Positions 1,644 to 15,528 of a stretch of DNA of 64,000 bases are shown here, piece after piece. The translations under genes and the position numbers were made by a program. Below the pieces are notes generated by a model that worked only from the letters and a program-made list of their open reading frames with translations, had not been told where the DNA came from and ran no database searches. Every line of letters begins with the position of its first letter. Position 1 is the stretch's first letter. The DNA lies in NCBI RefSeq assembly GCF_002215035.1, contig NZ_NKFP01000004.1:807726-871725 (forward strand). The letters are read 5' to 3'. Source of the stretch: Leptolyngbya ohadii IS1 (GTDB taxonomy: Bacteria > Cyanobacteriota > Cyanobacteriia > Elainellales > Elainellaceae).

Positions 1644-4600
1644 ATGTCCTTCGTTGGTCTTCACATTCATAGCGACTATAGCCTGCTGGATGGCGCGAGT
1701 CAGTTGCCCGAACTCGTCGATCGCGTGCTGGAGCTGGGGATGCCTGCGGTTGCCATTACGGATCATGGCGTGATGTATGGGGCGATCGAGCTGCTGAAGG
1801 TGTGCAAGGGCAAGGGCGTAAAGCCGATTATCGGCAATGAGATGTATGTGATCAACGGCGACATTACCAAGCAGGAGCGTCGTCCAAAGTACCATCAGGT
1901 CGTGCTGGCGAAGAATAAGCAGGGCTACAAGAATCTGGTGAAGCTGACCACGATCTCGCACCTGAAGGGCTACCAGGGGAAGGGGATTTTTGCGCGTCCC
2001 TGCATCAATAAAGATTTGCTGGTGCAGTACCGGGAAGGGCTGATGGTGACAAGTGCCTGTCTGGGCGGAGAAGTGCCGCAGGCGATCCTTCAGGGCAGAC
2101 CAGAAATTGCGCGGGAGCGGGCGGGCTGGTACAAGGAAGTTTTTGGCGACGATTATTATCTGGAGCTTCAGGATCACGGATCGCAGGAAGACCGGATCGT
2201 GAATGTAGAACTGGTGCGGATTGCGCGAGAGCTGGATATTAAGCTGATTTGCACCAACGATTCCCACTATATTTCCTGCTTTGACGTAGAGGCACACGAT
2301 GCGCTGCTCTGCATTCAAACGGGCAAACTGATCACCGAAGAAAAACGACTGCGCTATAGCGGCACAGAATATCTGAAATCCGCAGACGAAATGCGGCGGC
2401 TGTTCCGCGATCACCTGACGGAAGACATCATCGAAGAGGCGATCGTCAACACGCTGGAAGTCGCTGAGAAGGTCGAGGAATACAACATTCTGGGCGAACC
2501 GCGAATCCCCGATTATCCCGTTCCTCCGGGCTACACAATGGCGGAATACTTCGAGGAAACGACCCGCAAGGGATTGGTCGATCGCTTTGGCTGTCAGTCC
2601 TATGCAGAAATTGCGCCAGAGTACCAGGAGCGGCTGGAATATGAGCTGCAAATGATGCACCAGATGGGCTTTGATGCCTACTTTTTAGTGGTGTGGGACT
2701 ACATTAAGTTCGCGCGGGATAACGGCATTCCCGTGGGTCCGGGGCGGGGTTCGGCGGCGGGGTCACTGGTGGCGTATGCGCTGGGCATCACCAATATCGA
2801 TCCGGTGCATCACGGGCTGCTGTTCGAGCGATTCTTGAATCCTGAACGGAAATCGATGCCGGATATTGATACGGACTTCTGTATCGATCGCCGGGGAGAA
2901 GTGATCCAGTACGTGACCGAGAAGTACGGGACAGAACGAGTCGCGCAAATTATCACCTACAACCGCATGGCTTCTAAGGCGGTACTAAAGGACGTGGCGC
3001 GGGTGCTGAATGTGCCCTACGGGGAAAGCGATCGCATGACGAAGATGATTCCTGTGTTTCGTGGCAAGCCGACCAAGCTGAAGGTAATGATTTCCGACGC
3101 GACGCCTGCTCCGGAATTCAAGGAGAAATACGACAAGGATATGGTCGTGCCGGGAACGGAACCCCCAGTGACCTACCGCCGCTGGATCGACATGGCAATG
3201 CGGATCGAGGGAACCAACAAAGCAACGGGGGTTCACGCGGCAGGAGTAGTGATCTCAGCAGAACCCTTGGATGAAATTGTGCCGTTAGAAATGAGCAAAG
3301 AAGGCGGCGCTGTCACCCAATATCCGATGGAAGACATTGAGGCTCTGGGACTCCTCAAAATGGACTTCCTGGGGCTGAAAAACCTGACCATGATCCAGAA
3401 AACCGTGGATCTGGTGAAGTCTAATCATGGCGTTGAAGTGGATCTCGATCGCCTCCCGTTAGACGATCCCAAATCCTATCAGCTATTGGCAAAAGGTGAA
3501 CTCGAAGGCATCTTCCAGCTTGAATCCTCGGGGATGCGGCAAATTGTGCGCGATCTCAAACCTTCGGGCTTAGAGGATATCTCATCAGTCCTTGCTCTCT
3601 ACCGTCCGGGACCGCTGGATGCAGGACTAATCCCCAAATTTATTAACCGCAAACACGGCATTGAAAAAATTGAATACGAACATGAATTGTTGAAAAGTAT
3701 TCTGAACGAAACCTACGGAATCATGGTCTATCAGGAACAGATCATGAAGATTGCTCAGGATATGGGCGGTTATTCTCTGGGACAAGCGGATTTGCTCCGA
3801 CGAGCAATGGGTAAGAAGAAAAAGGAGGAGATGGAAAAGCACCAGAGTATTTTTGTGGAAGGTGCAAAGAAAAATAAGGTAGAACCGAAGATTGCGGCAG
3901 GCTTGTTTGAGCAAATGGTCAAATTTGCCGAATACTGCTTCAACAAGTCTCACTCGACGGCTTATGGATACGTTACCTACCAAACGGCGTATCTCAAATC
4001 AAATTATCCCGTCGAATATATGGCGGCACTGCTGACGGCAAACAGCGGCGATCAGGACAAGGTACAGAAGTACATCGCCACCTGCTACAGCATGGGCATC
4101 ACCGTCGAACCGCCGGACATCAACCGATCGGGTTTTGACTTCACTCCCCTCACTGACACCATTCTCTTCGGCCTATCGGCGGTGCGAAACGTGGGAGAAG
4201 GGGCGATCGAGCATATTCTGAAGGCACGAGAAGAAGGTGGCAGATTTAAGTCTCTGGCGGAGTTATGCGATCGAATTGACCCCCGCACCGTAAACCGCAG
4301 GGCACTGGAAGCATTAATTCAGTGTGGGGCACTGGATGCGCTTGAGCCGAACCGAAAGCAGTTAGTCAGTGATCTGGAGTACGTGCTGGACTGGGCACAA
4401 TCCCGCGCCAAAGATCGGGAAGTCGGTCAGGGGAATTTGTTTGACCTGTTTGGTGGTATGGGCGGCACGGTCGATCATTCTGCCAGCAGCAGTTTTGAAA
4501 GTGCCCCCAAAGCACCCGCAACAGAGGACTATCCGCCGCAGGAAAAGCTGAAGCTGGAAAAGGAATTACTCGGTTTCTACATTTCCGATCACCCGCTGAA

Positions 4601-5221: not shown

Positions 5222-5461
5222 CTAATTGGCATATTGAGCAGCAAGCATCGCGTTGATATGAGTAAAAATACGATCGAATTTCCCGATCGCCTCTAGTTCA
5301 GCCATTTCATCCGGCGTAATTTGGTCAGCTTTCTTCTTTTCTAGCAGTTCCTCCATACGAAGCTGAAGCGAGTTGCTGAATTTAAACAAATTCCAGTTCC
5401 CGAACTGCTCAAGCTGAATTTCGTGAATTAGTGAGGACGGCTTATTGAAGTCTATAACCAT
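5222..5461 (-). CDS. Small conserved hypothetical protein
   Basis: 79 residues. The C-terminal half (MEELLEKKKADQITPDEMAE, then LEAIGKFDRIFTHINAMLA) resembles small cyanobacterial proteins that often precede PIN or HNH genes; no such partner is adjacent here. A good ribosome binding site (CAGGAG, about 6 bases before the ATG) supports it. It is the first of four minus-strand frames in an AT-rich island downstream of dnaE. Function unknown. Confidence 0.65.
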   Translation of the reverse strand: MVIDFNKPSSLIHEIQLEQFGNWNLFKFSNSLQLRMEELLEKKKADQITPDEMAELEAIGKFDRIFTHINAMLAAQYAN

Positions 5462-5561
5462 CTCTACTCCTGTTAAAAAATGGGACGAATTTGTGATAGC
5501 TGTGATGTTAGTTTAACTTCAGTGGAAAAGTTAGCATCAATGAATTAAGAATAATCCGCAT

Positions 5562-12449: not shown

Positions 12450-13514
12450 CTAGACAGTCATCGGAGTAAGGGCTTCCTCAATCTGCCGCTGCTCGATCGC
12501 CCGACCAATAAACACTAATTTGGTTTGGCGGAGTTCTTCTGGCTGCCAGGGACGATCGTAGAAGGTGTCAAATCGATCGCCTACACCTTGCAGGACGAGA
12601 CGCATCGCTTTATTCGGGACAGCGACGAAGCCTTTAATTCGGTAGATTTCCTGCTGCTGCACGAGTTTTCTGAGCCGATCGATCAGCTGAGCGGGATCGA
12701 AGGCGCGATCGAGGATGACCTGAACGGAGGTAATGTCGTCGTCGTGGTCATGGTCTTCTTCGTGGTCGTGATGACTGGGGCGATTCTCCAGATCGGATTC
12801 CACTGCCGCATTAAAGCCGAGCAGCAGATTGGCACTCACCTGTCCCTGATGGCAGGGCACGATCTTAACACCGGGGGAAAGCTTCTGCTGAAGCCACGTC
12901 TGGACTTTTTCCTGGTTGGCAGCATCAACGCGATCGGCTTTTGTCAGAAGTACCAGGTCGGCACAGGCAAGCTGATCTTCAAACAGTTCTTCGATCGGCG
13001 TTTCGTGTTCCAGGGTGTCGTCTGCTTCTCGCTGTGCCAACAGTGCCTCCAGATCGCCCACCATTTGTCCCTTTGCCAGGGCTTCACAGTCTACCACCGT
13101 AATTACCCCGTCTACCGTTGCGCCAGTCCGAATTTCGGGCCAGCGGAATGCCTGCACCAGCGGTTTGGGCAGGGCTAAGCCGGAGGTTTCGATCAAAATA
13201 CAGTCGAGCTGATCGCGCCGCTTTAAAAGCTCCTGCATCGTAGGCAGAAATTCCTCCTGGACGGTGCAGCAGAGACAGCCGTTCGTGAGTTCCACAATAT
13301 TAGAAGTCTCGTTAGCAGTCTCGTTCGATGCTTCCTCATCCTCTGGACAAACCTGGCAGGAGCGCAGCAAATCGCCATCGATGCCCACCTCGCCAAATTC
13401 GTTGACCAGAACGGCAATCCGCCGCCCCTCGTTGTTTTGCAGTAAATGCCGGATCAGCGTGGTCTTGCCCGCGCCCAAAAATCCGGTGACGACGGTGACA
13501 GGAATTTTATGCAT
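12450..13514 (-). CDS. cobW: CobW-family metal-chaperone GTPase (B12 operon)
   Basis: 354 residues of the COG0523/CobW G3E GTPase family. Visible are the Walker A GFLGAGKTT, the NEFG and ETSG motifs, the metal-binding CLCC motif and the TKAD guanine-specificity motif. A His/Asp-rich stretch (HHDHEEDHDHDDD, about residues 243-256) precedes the C-terminal domain. These proteins deliver metal ions; with an upstream B12 riboswitch and cbtB, cobalt for cobalamin is the likely metal. A CAGGAG ribosome binding site lies before ATG 13514. It is third in the operon, 69 bases after the preceding gene. Confidence 0.88.
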   Translation of the reverse strand: MHKIPVTVVTGFLGAGKTTLIRHLLQNNEGRRIAVLVNEFGEVGIDGDLLRSCQVCPEDEEASNETANETSNIVELTNGCLCCTVQEEFLPTMQELLKRRDQLDCILIETSGLALPKPLVQAFRWPEIRTGATVDGVITVVDCEALAKGQMVGDLEALLAQREADDTLEHETPIEELFEDQLACADLVLLTKADRVDAANQEKVQTWLQQKLSPGVKIVPCHQGQVSANLLLGFNAAVESDLENRPSHHDHEEDHDHDDDITSVQVILDRAFDPAQLIDRLRKLVQQQEIYRIKGFVAVPNKAMRLVLQGVGDRFDTFYDRPWQPEELRQTKLVFIGRAIEQRQIEEALTPMTV

Positions 13515-13583
13515 CGTTGAATCTCCTGAATCTCTAAAGTGCTGAATTAAAGGGCGGAATTAGGGTGCTGAATGTCTAAGAAT

Positions 13584-14852
13584 TCAAAACCTGCCTGGAT
13601 TGGGCTTGAGAAAACCTTTGAAGCGCCGCGAACCCCGCTTCATTCTGCCTGCCCCAAAGCCGATCGCCATTCCGATCGCCACGATCGCCGTCATGTAGCC
13701 CAGCGTTTTGAGCCGGACGGACATTGGAGGGGCAATGCCTTCAACTTCGATCGCCTGCGTTAAGGTCACAGGTTTGGAACTGGTTGGGGAAAGAGCTTCA
13801 ATCTGAATTTGGTGGGGCGCACCGTCAAAAAACTGCTGCTGCCAGGTAAAGATGCCGCTGGCGTTAGGTTTGCCTGCGATCGCCAGAACCGTTGCTCCAT
13901 GCTCGGCGTCCTTTGCCTTCAGCTGAAAGGTGACATCCTGAATTGGCTGATTGGTGCGGGTGTCCATCAATCGTGCTGAAAGATCTGCCAGTTTGCCGAC
14001 GGTGGCGATCGTATCCCCCAGGTATTCCAGTTTGAGCGACCCGACCTCAGCCGTGGTGCGGCTCAAATTCTGGTTCAAAGAACGCTCTGCGTGGGATTGG
14101 GCTGCTTGCTCTGCGCTCAGGTTAACCGCCAGCAATGCCACGATCGCCGCCACTGCCGCCCCGGAAAGCAGCAGACGCACTGACTGGGCAAGTTCCTGGG
14201 AGTCCTCCCGTTTCTGAGGCTGTCTGGCAATCACCCAACCGCCCACCAGTCCCAGCAGCAGCAGAATTACCGCCAGGGTTGCCGCATTGCGATACTTCAC
14301 CGGGTTTTCCGGCACGTTCAGCACAAAGGTTTGGGTAACGGGGGCATCCATTCCTGGCGCGGTAGCGGTGGCTTGCAGGCGATAGGCTCCCCGAATCGGC
14401 AGAATCGTTTCCAGTTCCAGGGTATCTTCCGCAGACTTCAGCTCCGCATTTAGCAGCGTTGTCCCTTCCACGATCGGGAAATCTGTCGTTAGCCAGGGAT
14501 TAGTGGGCGGCGTGTTTAGCGTGATCTGCCACTGTGCCTGCTGTATGGGCGTTTTTTGACGATCGACTGCCTCTAGCTTCAGCCGGACGGGCTGCTGAGC
14601 CGGAATGATGCCGCTGAGGGGAGGCTGTGCGGCAAGCTGAAGCTGAACCTGACCCGCGATCGCCCCATTGGATGAGCGAGACGGATTGAACGGGTTAGGC
14701 TGCCCTCCCCCCGACTGGACTGCCTCCATCGGAGCATCGATCGGAATATCCTGATGCTCATGTCCCAGGTGAGCCTGCGCCGGAATGCTCAATGCCAAAA
14801 CGCTCACCAGGCTGAGTAAGCCCATGAGCCACTGTCGCGATGAAATTGCCAT
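13584..14852 (-). CDS. Membrane protein with Ig-like segments in B12-controlled operon
   Basis: 422 residues, family not recognised. A signal peptide (about 1-27) is followed at once by HLGHEH, a likely metal-binding patch. An extracytoplasmic beta-rich segment (about 65-180) follows, then two membrane helices (about 189-209 and 225-246), a second beta-rich segment (about 268-375, YRLQ/ITLN-style Ig-like strands) and a final helix (383-402) with a basic tail. It lies between cbtB and cobW behind a cobalamin riboswitch, where other bacteria have cbtA; it shows no likeness to the five-helix CbtA. A role in cobalt binding or uptake at the envelope is inferred from context. ATG 14852 is chosen because it opens the signal peptide. 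Confidence 0.7.
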   Translation of the reverse strand: MAISSRQWLMGLLSLVSVLALSIPAQAHLGHEHQDIPIDAPMEAVQSGGGQPNPFNPSRSSNGAIAGQVQLQLAAQPPLSGIIPAQQPVRLKLEAVDRQKTPIQQAQWQITLNTPPTNPWLTTDFPIVEGTTLLNAELKSAEDTLELETILPIRGAYRLQATATAPGMDAPVTQTFVLNVPENPVKYRNAATLAVILLLLGLVGGWVIARQPQKREDSQELAQSVRLLLSGAAVAAIVALLAVNLSAEQAAQSHAERSLNQNLSRTTAEVGSLKLEYLGDTIATVGKLADLSARLMDTRTNQPIQDVTFQLKAKDAEHGATVLAIAGKPNASGIFTWQQQFFDGAPHQIQIEALSPTSSKPVTLTQAIEVEGIAPPMSVRLKTLGYMTAIVAIGMAIGFGAGRMKRGSRRFKGFLKPNPGRF

Positions 14853-14904
14853 TGCTCTTAGGTTTTGCGTAATCTCAATCCTGACCCAATCCTGACCCCA
14901 ATCC

Positions 14905-15105
14905 CTAGTGACAGCCAACGCCTAGCGTGGAGTGGCGGGTTTCGTGCAGGGCATTGTGAGCGGGGGCATAGCTGCTGAAGTAGACCGTCCAGAGCGTCGT
15001 TGCCGTCAGCAGGAGAAAGAGCGTACACTGAACCGGAACTGAAAGGGTGAGCTTAGCCGTGCGTTGCAGGAGAGCTTGGGTTGAATTCTGAGTTGCAGTC
15101 GTCAT
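14905..15105 (-). CDS. cbtB: Cobalt transporter subunit CbtB-like protein
   Basis: 66 residues: one membrane helix (PVQCTLFLLLTATTLWTVYF) followed by a His-rich tail, HNALHETRHSTLGVGCH. This is the CbtB layout: single helix, then His ligands at the C-terminus. CbtB is a predicted subunit of a B12-repressed cobalt transporter whose large subunit is CbtA; no cbtA is seen here. A GAGG ribosome binding site is about 6 bases upstream, and the start lies just past the cobalamin riboswitch, making this the first gene of a three-gene operon. Confidence 0.85.
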   Translation of the reverse strand: MTTATQNSTQALLQRTAKLTLSVPVQCTLFLLLTATTLWTVYFSSYAPAHNALHETRHSTLGVGCH

Positions 15106-15137
15106 CTGTACCTCGCAGATTGCATGAGCGATTTCTG

Positions 15138-15296
15138 AGCGTCGGTGGGCATCCTGACTTAGAGCTTGGGGCAGAACGGACGAGACCGGCGGTTCATGTT
15201 TCCGCTCCTAATCTTCCTGATCTGCTCGTGACCTGCTCATTACAGTTGCGGGACAGTGCTGGACTTGCACCAGACTTTCCCCGGTTTCTAGACGCT
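15138..15296 (-). ncRNA. Cobalamin (adenosylcobalamin-type) riboswitch
   Basis: Read on the minus strand the region contains GGTGCAAGTCC, CACTGTCCCGCAACTGTAAT (the B12 box) and AAGTCAGGATGCC, all hallmarks of the cobalamin riboswitch in the correct order. A closing P1 helix is visible: AGCGTC at the 5' end pairs with GACGCT at the 3' end. It sits directly before cbtB, leaving about 30 bases for the expression platform around the ribosome binding site. B12 binding is expected to switch the operon off. Confidence 0.92.
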
Positions 15297-15528
15297 TTTA
15301 GTAATGTTGAAACTTAAGTTGAAATCCAAATTAGAATCCAGAACTCAAGCAAAGCGCCTGTCCACCTCCGACGGCTGCTCCCCGTCAGAACCAACGAATT
15401 GAATCGTCCCCCCACCCTACCACAGATGGCGTTCACTATCCGTTAAACTGTTGATTCAGAGAGTGCGGCTAGAGGCTAAGTCCTCCCCTGCCTCTAACTG
15501 TTACTGCACCTCAATTGCACCTCAATTC

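Follow-up and report, generated by a model that had tools for sequence, protein, structure and literature searches.

Which protein accompanies CbtB in a genome where CbtA is not found? The question is raised by a locus of Leptolyngbya ohadii IS1 within a stretch of 64,000 nucleotides (nt) that we call the window, in which a cobalamin (B12) riboswitch precedes cbtB, the gene for a 422-residue unclassified membrane protein, and cobW. We name this protein CIP, for CbtB-linked Ig protein. Comparison of loci shows cbtB and CIP to be constant partners as judged by gene order, and CIP, by the family searches reported here, occupies CbtA's place beside CbtB without a sequence match to CbtA. We consider it fairly probable that cbtB-CIP, followed by cobW in the window, forms a B12-repressed operon for cobalt acquisition in which CIP stands where CbtA would. 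The partnership and the regulation are argued from comparative evidence; the metal, the direction and the mechanism we infer.

The four elements follow one another on the minus strand, between 15332 and 12450:

15127..15332, minus strand: cobalamin riboswitch aptamer RF00174 (cmscan, full model 1-189)
14905..15105, minus strand: cbtB, 66 aa, one transmembrane (TM) helix by eye (PF09489)
13584..14852, minus strand: CIP, 422 aa from ATG, membrane protein and constant neighbour of cbtB (conserved family)
12450..13514, minus strand: cobW, 354 aa, by family a Co(II) metallochaperone GTPase of cobalamin synthesis (TIGR02475, PF02492, PF07683)

The genes are separated by 52 nt (cbtB-CIP) and 69 nt (CIP-cobW), and no terminator-like site was found on the minus strand. 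An initial annotation of this DNA had placed a B12 riboswitch, cbtB, a 422-residue protein and CobW here, and these assignments hold, with RF00174, PF09489 and TIGR02475 all over their cut-offs. CobW scores 502.6 bits against the TIGR02475 equivalog cut-off of 332.1 and is, by family score, a Co(II) metallochaperone; CobW is described as a Co(II) chaperone with GTP-dependent Co(II) binding (PMC7895991).

The partner of CbtB in Cyanobacteria

The CbtB of the window exceeds the PF09489 cut-off (30.9 bits, cut-off 27) and falls far under that of TIGR02459 (24.3 bits, cut-off 64.4), and we therefore regard it as a divergent CbtB. Its C-terminal residues H50, H54, R57, H58, C65 and H66 are invariant in all 17 aligned sequences.

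To survey the pairing we compiled 97 loci, consisting of the window's, 16 from a search of the phylum and the 80 best of 145 relatives. CbtB lies directly upstream of CIP in 95 of the 97, 94 according to an automatic table plus L108, where a CbtB-CIP fusion was considered and rejected: an overlapping frame had hidden a separate cbtB from the table. L062 and L103 reach just 275 and 285 nt beyond CIP on its upstream side, where their contigs stop too soon to show cbtB. We dropped as duplicates L063 (the same as L024), L073 (L028) and L074 (L021), and also removed from the counts L062, L103 and L104, which lie at contig edges, and a CIP fragment of 40 aa in L111; the CIP genes of L058 and L059 are identical, yet they come from different records, and both loci were counted. 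In all 92 non-duplicate testable loci cbtB is immediately 5' of CIP.

The same pairing is seen in other collections. CIP occurs in 15 plasmid records; in 14 of them CbtB is present as well, and the remaining one holds no more than 15 percent of CIP. A plasmid search with CbtB as the query returned cyanobacterial records only. A wider draw gave 10 full-length CIP copies, five of them repeats of earlier loci (L179, L181, L189, L193, L202). CbtB accompanies the five new ones and the one split copy, while two CIP fragments have no CbtB. Conversely, PF09489 is present in 15 of 292 cyanobacterial genomes and by coordinates all 15 adjoin CIP; in two CIP genomes that PF09489 missed (G060 and G167) CbtB was found by pairwise search. 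Two loci hold, in addition, an inverted fragment of CIP shortly upstream of cbtB, in one case of its 3' end (G125:C1:3199485-3199613) and in the other near position -971 of CIP (L111). They look as if they were the remnant of a lost second, inverted copy.

CbtA was tested for in the same genomes. PF09490 found no protein over its cut-off in the 292 cyanobacterial genomes, with the search control matching in Haloferax only, and gave no match to 17 CIP proteins at E up to 0.5. The best PF09490 match in the window's own genome (8 contigs, 7.9 Mb) reaches 21.5 bits against a cut-off of 30.7, over 111 residues of a 1113-aa frame elsewhere, and was rejected as CbtA. The reading thus came through most of the refuting conditions set out in the initial annotation. 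Because CbtA was looked for and not found, the pair is not CbtAB. The proposal that an unrecognised protein takes cbtA's position is thus borne out by the 92 of 92 loci with a CbtB neighbour and by the zero of 292 genomes with CbtA.

CIP is a conserved cyanobacterial family. As a single sequence it finds relatives in 17 of the 292 genomes, and a 17-row profile has matches in 29 of 386 genomes, two of which hold fragments only (G149, G399) and one a copy split over two frames (G381). A scan of bacteria and archaea with one genome per species gave 145 relatives, the best 80 of which are all from Cyanobacteria. The protein was rightly called unrecognised, since no Pfam or NCBIfam family matches it over cut-off. 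Among 17 members there are only weak matches, to YtkA (5 members, best 0.0097), BIg21 (4 members, best 0.0012), Big_1 and others, none of which we take as its family. Two results of the PDB sequence search were likewise left unused: a 5898-residue repeat protein, none of whose stretches passes on its own, and transthyretins at E 0.3-1.

An AlphaFold2 (AF2) model built from 17 sequences (pLDDT 78) divides CIP into the following predicted parts:

14772..14852, minus strand: signal peptide region, residues 1-27 (AlphaFold helix 5-21; sequence ends AQA; cleavage presumed)
14313..14645, minus strand: first beta-sandwich, residues 70-180, with a loop carrying invariant D124 and E129 (AF2, conservation)
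14226..14303, minus strand: helix 184-209, TM (AF2 model)
14079..14198, minus strand: helix 219-258, TM and then an outward extension with E248 and H254 (AF2 model)
13740..14057, minus strand: second beta-sandwich, residues 266-371, with an FFDG-P-H motif (D343, H347) (AF2, conservation)
13626..13724, minus strand: helix 377-409, TM, with a basic tail inside (AF2 model)

The model agrees with the earlier description of a signal peptide, two beta-rich parts and three helices, showing a first helix, two beta domains and three later helices. Both sandwiches are predicted to be outside, since basic segments follow the first and third membrane helices (by eye). Modelled alone from 46 sequences under 82 percent identity, domain 1 reaches a pLDDT of 89. 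It aligns with a macroglobulin domain of CD109 (Z 11.4, rmsd 2.3, 96 aligned) and with the silver-bound copper resistance determinant CrdA (Z 10.4, rmsd 2.5, 98 aligned), the two being tied within 1, and in Foldseek the periplasmic copper protein PmoD ranks third (E 3.9e-4). Domain 2 is closest to macroglobulin domains (Z 8.7, rmsd 2.0, 100 aligned). Foldseek matches of the whole model were dropped at TM-scores of about 0.2 over the query. A resemblance to metal-binding proteins, which the initial annotation had suggested looking for, is seen in domain 1, but the fold is a common one and shows no function.

Across an alignment of 101 CIP sequences P84, D124, E129, R154, E182, K186, W337, D343 and others never vary; D343, in the FFDG-P-H motif, is thus present in 101 of 101, E248 is kept in 100 and H347 in 99. 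A GHEH patch had been singled out as a functional motif. It is present in the window's CIP and is not conserved, even in the nearest relative (L042, 71 percent identical), and so the idea was not sustained. After the long helix many members carry a His-rich linker, with at least three His in 48 of the 101 and one or none in 17, the window's protein included.

The cobalamin riboswitch before cbtB

The riboswitch of the window matches RF00174 over its full length with 37.8 bits, against a gathering score of 31.5 (E 5.3e-06 when the entire window is searched), and is the sole Rfam match over its own gathering score within the window. At permissive settings Rfam gave further matches, for example to miRNA families, which we put down to chance.

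Upstream sequence was usable at 98 loci, and at 35 of them a B12 riboswitch precedes cbtB. These 35 comprise 6 of the 17 first loci, 20 of 48 loci from searchable genomes, 6 of 7 annotated plasmid loci (53-66 bits) and the three loci L076, L101 and L114. The riboswitch of L114 belongs to RF01482 (50.5 bits against a gathering score of 50) and there is no RF00174 there; an apparent RF00174 match by coordinates was rejected as a coincidence with another contig, hence the count of 20 and not 21 of the 48. Co-occurrence with cbtB and B12 control, the check proposed in the initial annotation, therefore gave a mixed result: the link to cbtB stands at 92 of 92, while the riboswitch is common yet not uniform, most Nostocaceae being without it.

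Only two of the 35 riboswitch loci (L035, L105) fall in Nostocaceae or in family code f6, which is common to loci named Desmonostoc, Dolichospermum and Richelia; the other 33 lie outside. Among the five new copies of the wider draw, the one of family f3 (L197) has a riboswitch and the four of f6 have none. Mapped on a tree of 101 CIP proteins, which carried 34 riboswitch labels with L114 counted as without, the label needs 6 state changes. On a group table it needs 8, compared to a mean of 28.8 for shuffled labels.

Several other upstream elements were noticed in passing. The window's genome holds two B12 riboswitches among the 150 of 514 candidates scored, the window's own and one that precedes a 433-aa frame, CbiX-like by eye and with a long His-rich tail (G000:C6:1258287-1258434, L037). 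In L112 an oppositely oriented cobalamin riboswitch (4125-4274, minus strand) precedes a 704-aa frame that diverges from cbtB. Loci of the Nostoc clade without a riboswitch (e.g. L024, L026, L046, L047) have a conserved block, TTGTCAAA...AAAGTTTATNGTATATCTTTTTGCAATCAAGTG, about 100-150 nt before cbtB, which is perhaps another promoter or operator.

The end of the window's leader is predicted to fold into a hairpin at the cbtB start:

15104..15120, minus strand: hairpin ATCTG-CGAGGTA-CAGAT with a GAGG ribosome-binding site in its loop (minimum free energy fold)

The last two bases of this hairpin overlap the cbtB ATG. A GCGAGGT core 2-7 nt before an in-frame cbtB start is found in 29 of the 35 riboswitch leaders, usually within TCTGCGAGGTACAGA, and the hairpin pattern is found in 2 of the 63 leaders without a riboswitch. 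Those two (L111, L112), with no cobalamin aptamer detected before cbtB, are perhaps decayed riboswitches. In L023, L090 and L110 TGTG/CACA replaces TCTG/CAGA, a two-sided change that keeps the stem; in others, such as L035 and L044, pairs at the base of the hairpin are broken. Cobalamin riboswitches can control translation through docking of the aptamer on a hairpin, and the leader hairpin here is likely the expression platform, to judge from its position and recurrence. L102 differs in layout: a 103-aa frame with a signal-like start followed by AHHGGSH lies between riboswitch and cbtB (5235-5546, plus strand), and the start-site hairpin motif belongs to this frame and not to cbtB.

Genomic setting and the role of the pair

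The neighbours of the pair vary. CobW, identified by similarity to the window's, follows it on the same strand in just 4 of the 97 loci, so that CobW as a fixed part of the unit has to be given up. DUF1636 lies downstream on the same strand in 10 of the 97 (Pfam-confirmed in L033). On the same strand CbiM is found no more than 6 kb away in 8 of the 97 and is the next gene in 5, both counts including L063, the duplicate of L024; downstream within 6 kb it is found in 7 non-duplicate loci, and opposite-strand genes lie between the pair and CbiM in L022, L066 and L116. In L034 (G014) a HupE-family frame with one in-frame stop begins about 100 nt after CIP and is possibly a decaying member of the operon.

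We examined the importers of 35 CIP genomes, consisting of 17 plus 18 added mostly because their pair has a riboswitch. CbiM is present in 25 (broken in G125), HupE in 21 and NicO in 16, with at least one of them in each genome. B12 riboswitches of pair-bearing genomes also precede HupE (G310, G319, G321, G326) and CbiM (G293, G306, G329), and the pair is therefore controlled like known cobalt importers. The window's genome has a CbiM gene followed by PDGLE-, CbiQ- and CbiO-like frames (by eye); HupE and NicO were not found in it, and the 150 riboswitch candidates scored, of 514, included no B12 riboswitch at this CbiM operon.

All seven plasmid copies examined are situated within metal islands or next to metal genes. 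These surroundings contain, not every gene in each record, heavy-metal P-type ATPases, CDF and RND efflux systems, ArsR/MerR regulators, RppAB and multicopper oxidase. On plasmids of Chroococcidiopsis, Leptolyngbya, Stanieria and Pseudanabaena (L137, L140, L141, L143) a multicopper oxidase is paired with a metal transporter, annotated ZupT in L140.

We infer that the pair takes up cobalt, in the following way. When cobalamin is scarce, the riboswitch would leave the ribosome-binding site of cbtB free; when it is plentiful, the ligand-bound aptamer would probably dock on the hairpin and halt translation, as the anatomy of the leader suggests. CbtB, with one helix and a His/Cys tail outside, and CIP, with two extracytoplasmic Ig-type domains and three helices, would form a complex in the inner membrane. 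This complex would capture periplasmic Co(II) and load it onto a resident importer of the CbiMQO, HupE or NicO type, a helper role like that of CbiN or NikK/NikL for energy-coupling factor (ECF) permeases, and in the window CobW would then carry Co(II) towards corrin synthesis. We favour cobalt acquisition because the control is off when cobalamin is plentiful, because of the links to CobW, DUF1636, CbiM and HupE, and because cbtBA is B12-repressed elsewhere. The more specific proposal of a capture-and-loading unit for a resident importer, built on gene order and predicted topology, is a serious possibility, somewhat short of probable.

A number of observations weigh against B12-controlled cobalt acquisition. 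By minimum free energy the window's leader folds no more stably than shuffled sequence does (z 0.47); with an aptamer that also scores weakly, the reality of this riboswitch therefore rests on the family model and on its relatives. Riboswitches were undetected in 63 of the 98 loci, mostly Nostocaceae (36 by covariance model and 27 by a B12-box pattern alone, which recovers 24 of 29 known non-plasmid riboswitch loci), and ten loci scanned whole, nine of f6 plus L031 of f18, gave none. A multicopper oxidase is divergent within 2.5 kb in 36 of the 97 loci, often in Nostocaceae, and the efflux pumps and metal regulators around the plasmid pairs also fit metal resistance. The presence of an importer in 35 of 35 CIP genomes may be the ordinary rate, CIP genomes only having been compared. 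CIP itself has no conserved metal-binding cluster beyond scattered D/E/H, the window's copy is without the His-rich linker of many relatives, and the folds, as modelled, are common and tell no function. Finally, transport by CbtA itself is unproven (PMC4771312).

One alternative is that CbtB and CIP need no further importer and are themselves the cobalt permease, CIP forming the channel, a task commonly assigned to CbtA. Next to CbtB one CIP takes the place of one CbtA, four of the 35 CIP genomes (G197, G309, G314, G328) are without both CbiM and HupE, and the window's genome, with neither a riboswitch found at its CbiM operon nor HupE or NicO, fits such a permease. Yet all four genomes encode NicO-family proteins, and the several different importers near the pair argue against it. 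So does the small number of helices, as the pair keeps only four once the signal peptide is cleaved, with conserved polar residues that are few and mostly near their ends (K186, E219, R226, S230, N244, E248, R380). These few helices and few polar residues within them lead us to favour a loader over a permease, which we think unlikely. Less likely again is that the pair is a periplasmic unit that sequesters heavy metal (copper, nickel, cobalt, zinc) or assists its efflux, with the riboswitch doing no more than tune it in settings in which B12 supply matters. The P-type ATPase, CDF, RND, ArsR/MerR and RppAB genes of the plasmid islands, the divergent multicopper oxidases and the likeness of domain 1 to the copper proteins CrdA and PmoD all favour resistance. 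However, 6 of the 7 plasmid copies keep their strong B12 riboswitch directly before cbtB, and B12 repression has the wrong sign for detoxification, because one would expect a unit under such repression to be required at low cobalamin. The CobW, CbiM and HupE neighbours speak against resistance as well, and the likeness to CrdA is one of a common fold, with Z tied with complement domains.

That the pair imports a corrinoid or cobalt complex instead of free cobalt seems to us highly improbable. B12 riboswitches control corrinoid uptake genes in general (PMC3766115), but there is no Btu annotation in the seven plasmid regions, the neighbour queries at the other loci not having included Btu genes; CobW, a handler of Co(II), follows the pair in four loci; and CbtB is a predicted cobalt protein elsewhere.

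Returning to cobalt acquisition, we conjecture that an efflux island must guard the cell's cobalt supply for B12, which would reconcile the metal-resistance and the B12 settings. It is conceivable, if doubtful, that the pair represents a cyanobacterial class of its own among cobalt importers or loaders, in which CbtA was swapped for a double-Ig membrane protein, and which metal-resistance plasmids carry so that B12 synthesis regains the cobalt that efflux would drain.

Comparison with known systems

If our reading is right, the pair is a third B12-controlled cobalt candidate across Cyanobacteria, besides the CbiMNQO-type and HupE systems, and it links cobalt supply to mobile metal-resistance islands. 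In the plasmid records examined CIP is called just hypothetical; the family can now be named and followed in databases that miss it. The parting of CbtB from CbtA also makes the role of CbtB testable, since whatever the two pairings share must be the job of CbtB itself. Table 2 of a 2009 survey of 16 cyanobacteria gives CbiMNQO-type and HupE transporters and no Cbt-type cobalt transporter (PMC2667541), and the literature searched, subscription journals being mostly outside it, yielded no paper about a partner of CbtB in cyanobacteria.

The closest likeness is to CbtAB, which also has a CbtB protein next to a larger membrane partner, is controlled by B12 riboswitches and has CobW near in some loci, and by the comparisons made here the pair works like CbtAB in position and regulation. 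Of the genes that PMC8123684 names, CbtBA is the one most strongly repressed by B12. In a methanotroph, knock-down of cbtB improved growth and lower cobalt did likewise, a result consistent with CbtB working inwards (PMC13108547). The differences are that no CbtA over cut-off exists in the phylum sample, that the window's CbtB is below the TIGR02459 cut-off, and that the partner here has no Pfam match, two Ig-type domains and three helices.

CbiN and NikK/NikL of the CbiMQO/NikMQO ECF systems are, like the proposed loader, membrane proteins that assist a permease for cobalt or nickel, and CbiM does lie downstream in seven non-duplicate loci. CIP is, however, mostly not beside ECF genes, and CbiN, PDGLE and DUF4198 are absent from the list of 22 Pfam families that 17 CIP members gave at E up to 0.5 (PF10670, PF02553 and PF13190 are presumably the accessions of these NikK/NikL or CbiN/PDGLE accessory families). 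Cbi/NikM systems as such are known from Cyanobacteria (PMC2667541). HupE is likewise a B12-riboswitch-controlled cobalt transporter in the same phylum (PMC4284471, PMC7689651), but it acts as a lone permease, belongs to a different Pfam family (PF04955) and is co-resident with the pair in 21 of the 35 genomes examined. To the macroglobulin and CrdA/PmoD-type sandwiches the modelled CIP domains show a resemblance at a sequence identity of about 20 percent at most, a likeness of fold alone. CbtAB, CbiMNQO and HupE are the known kinds of system, and the pairing of CbtB with CIP differs from all three.

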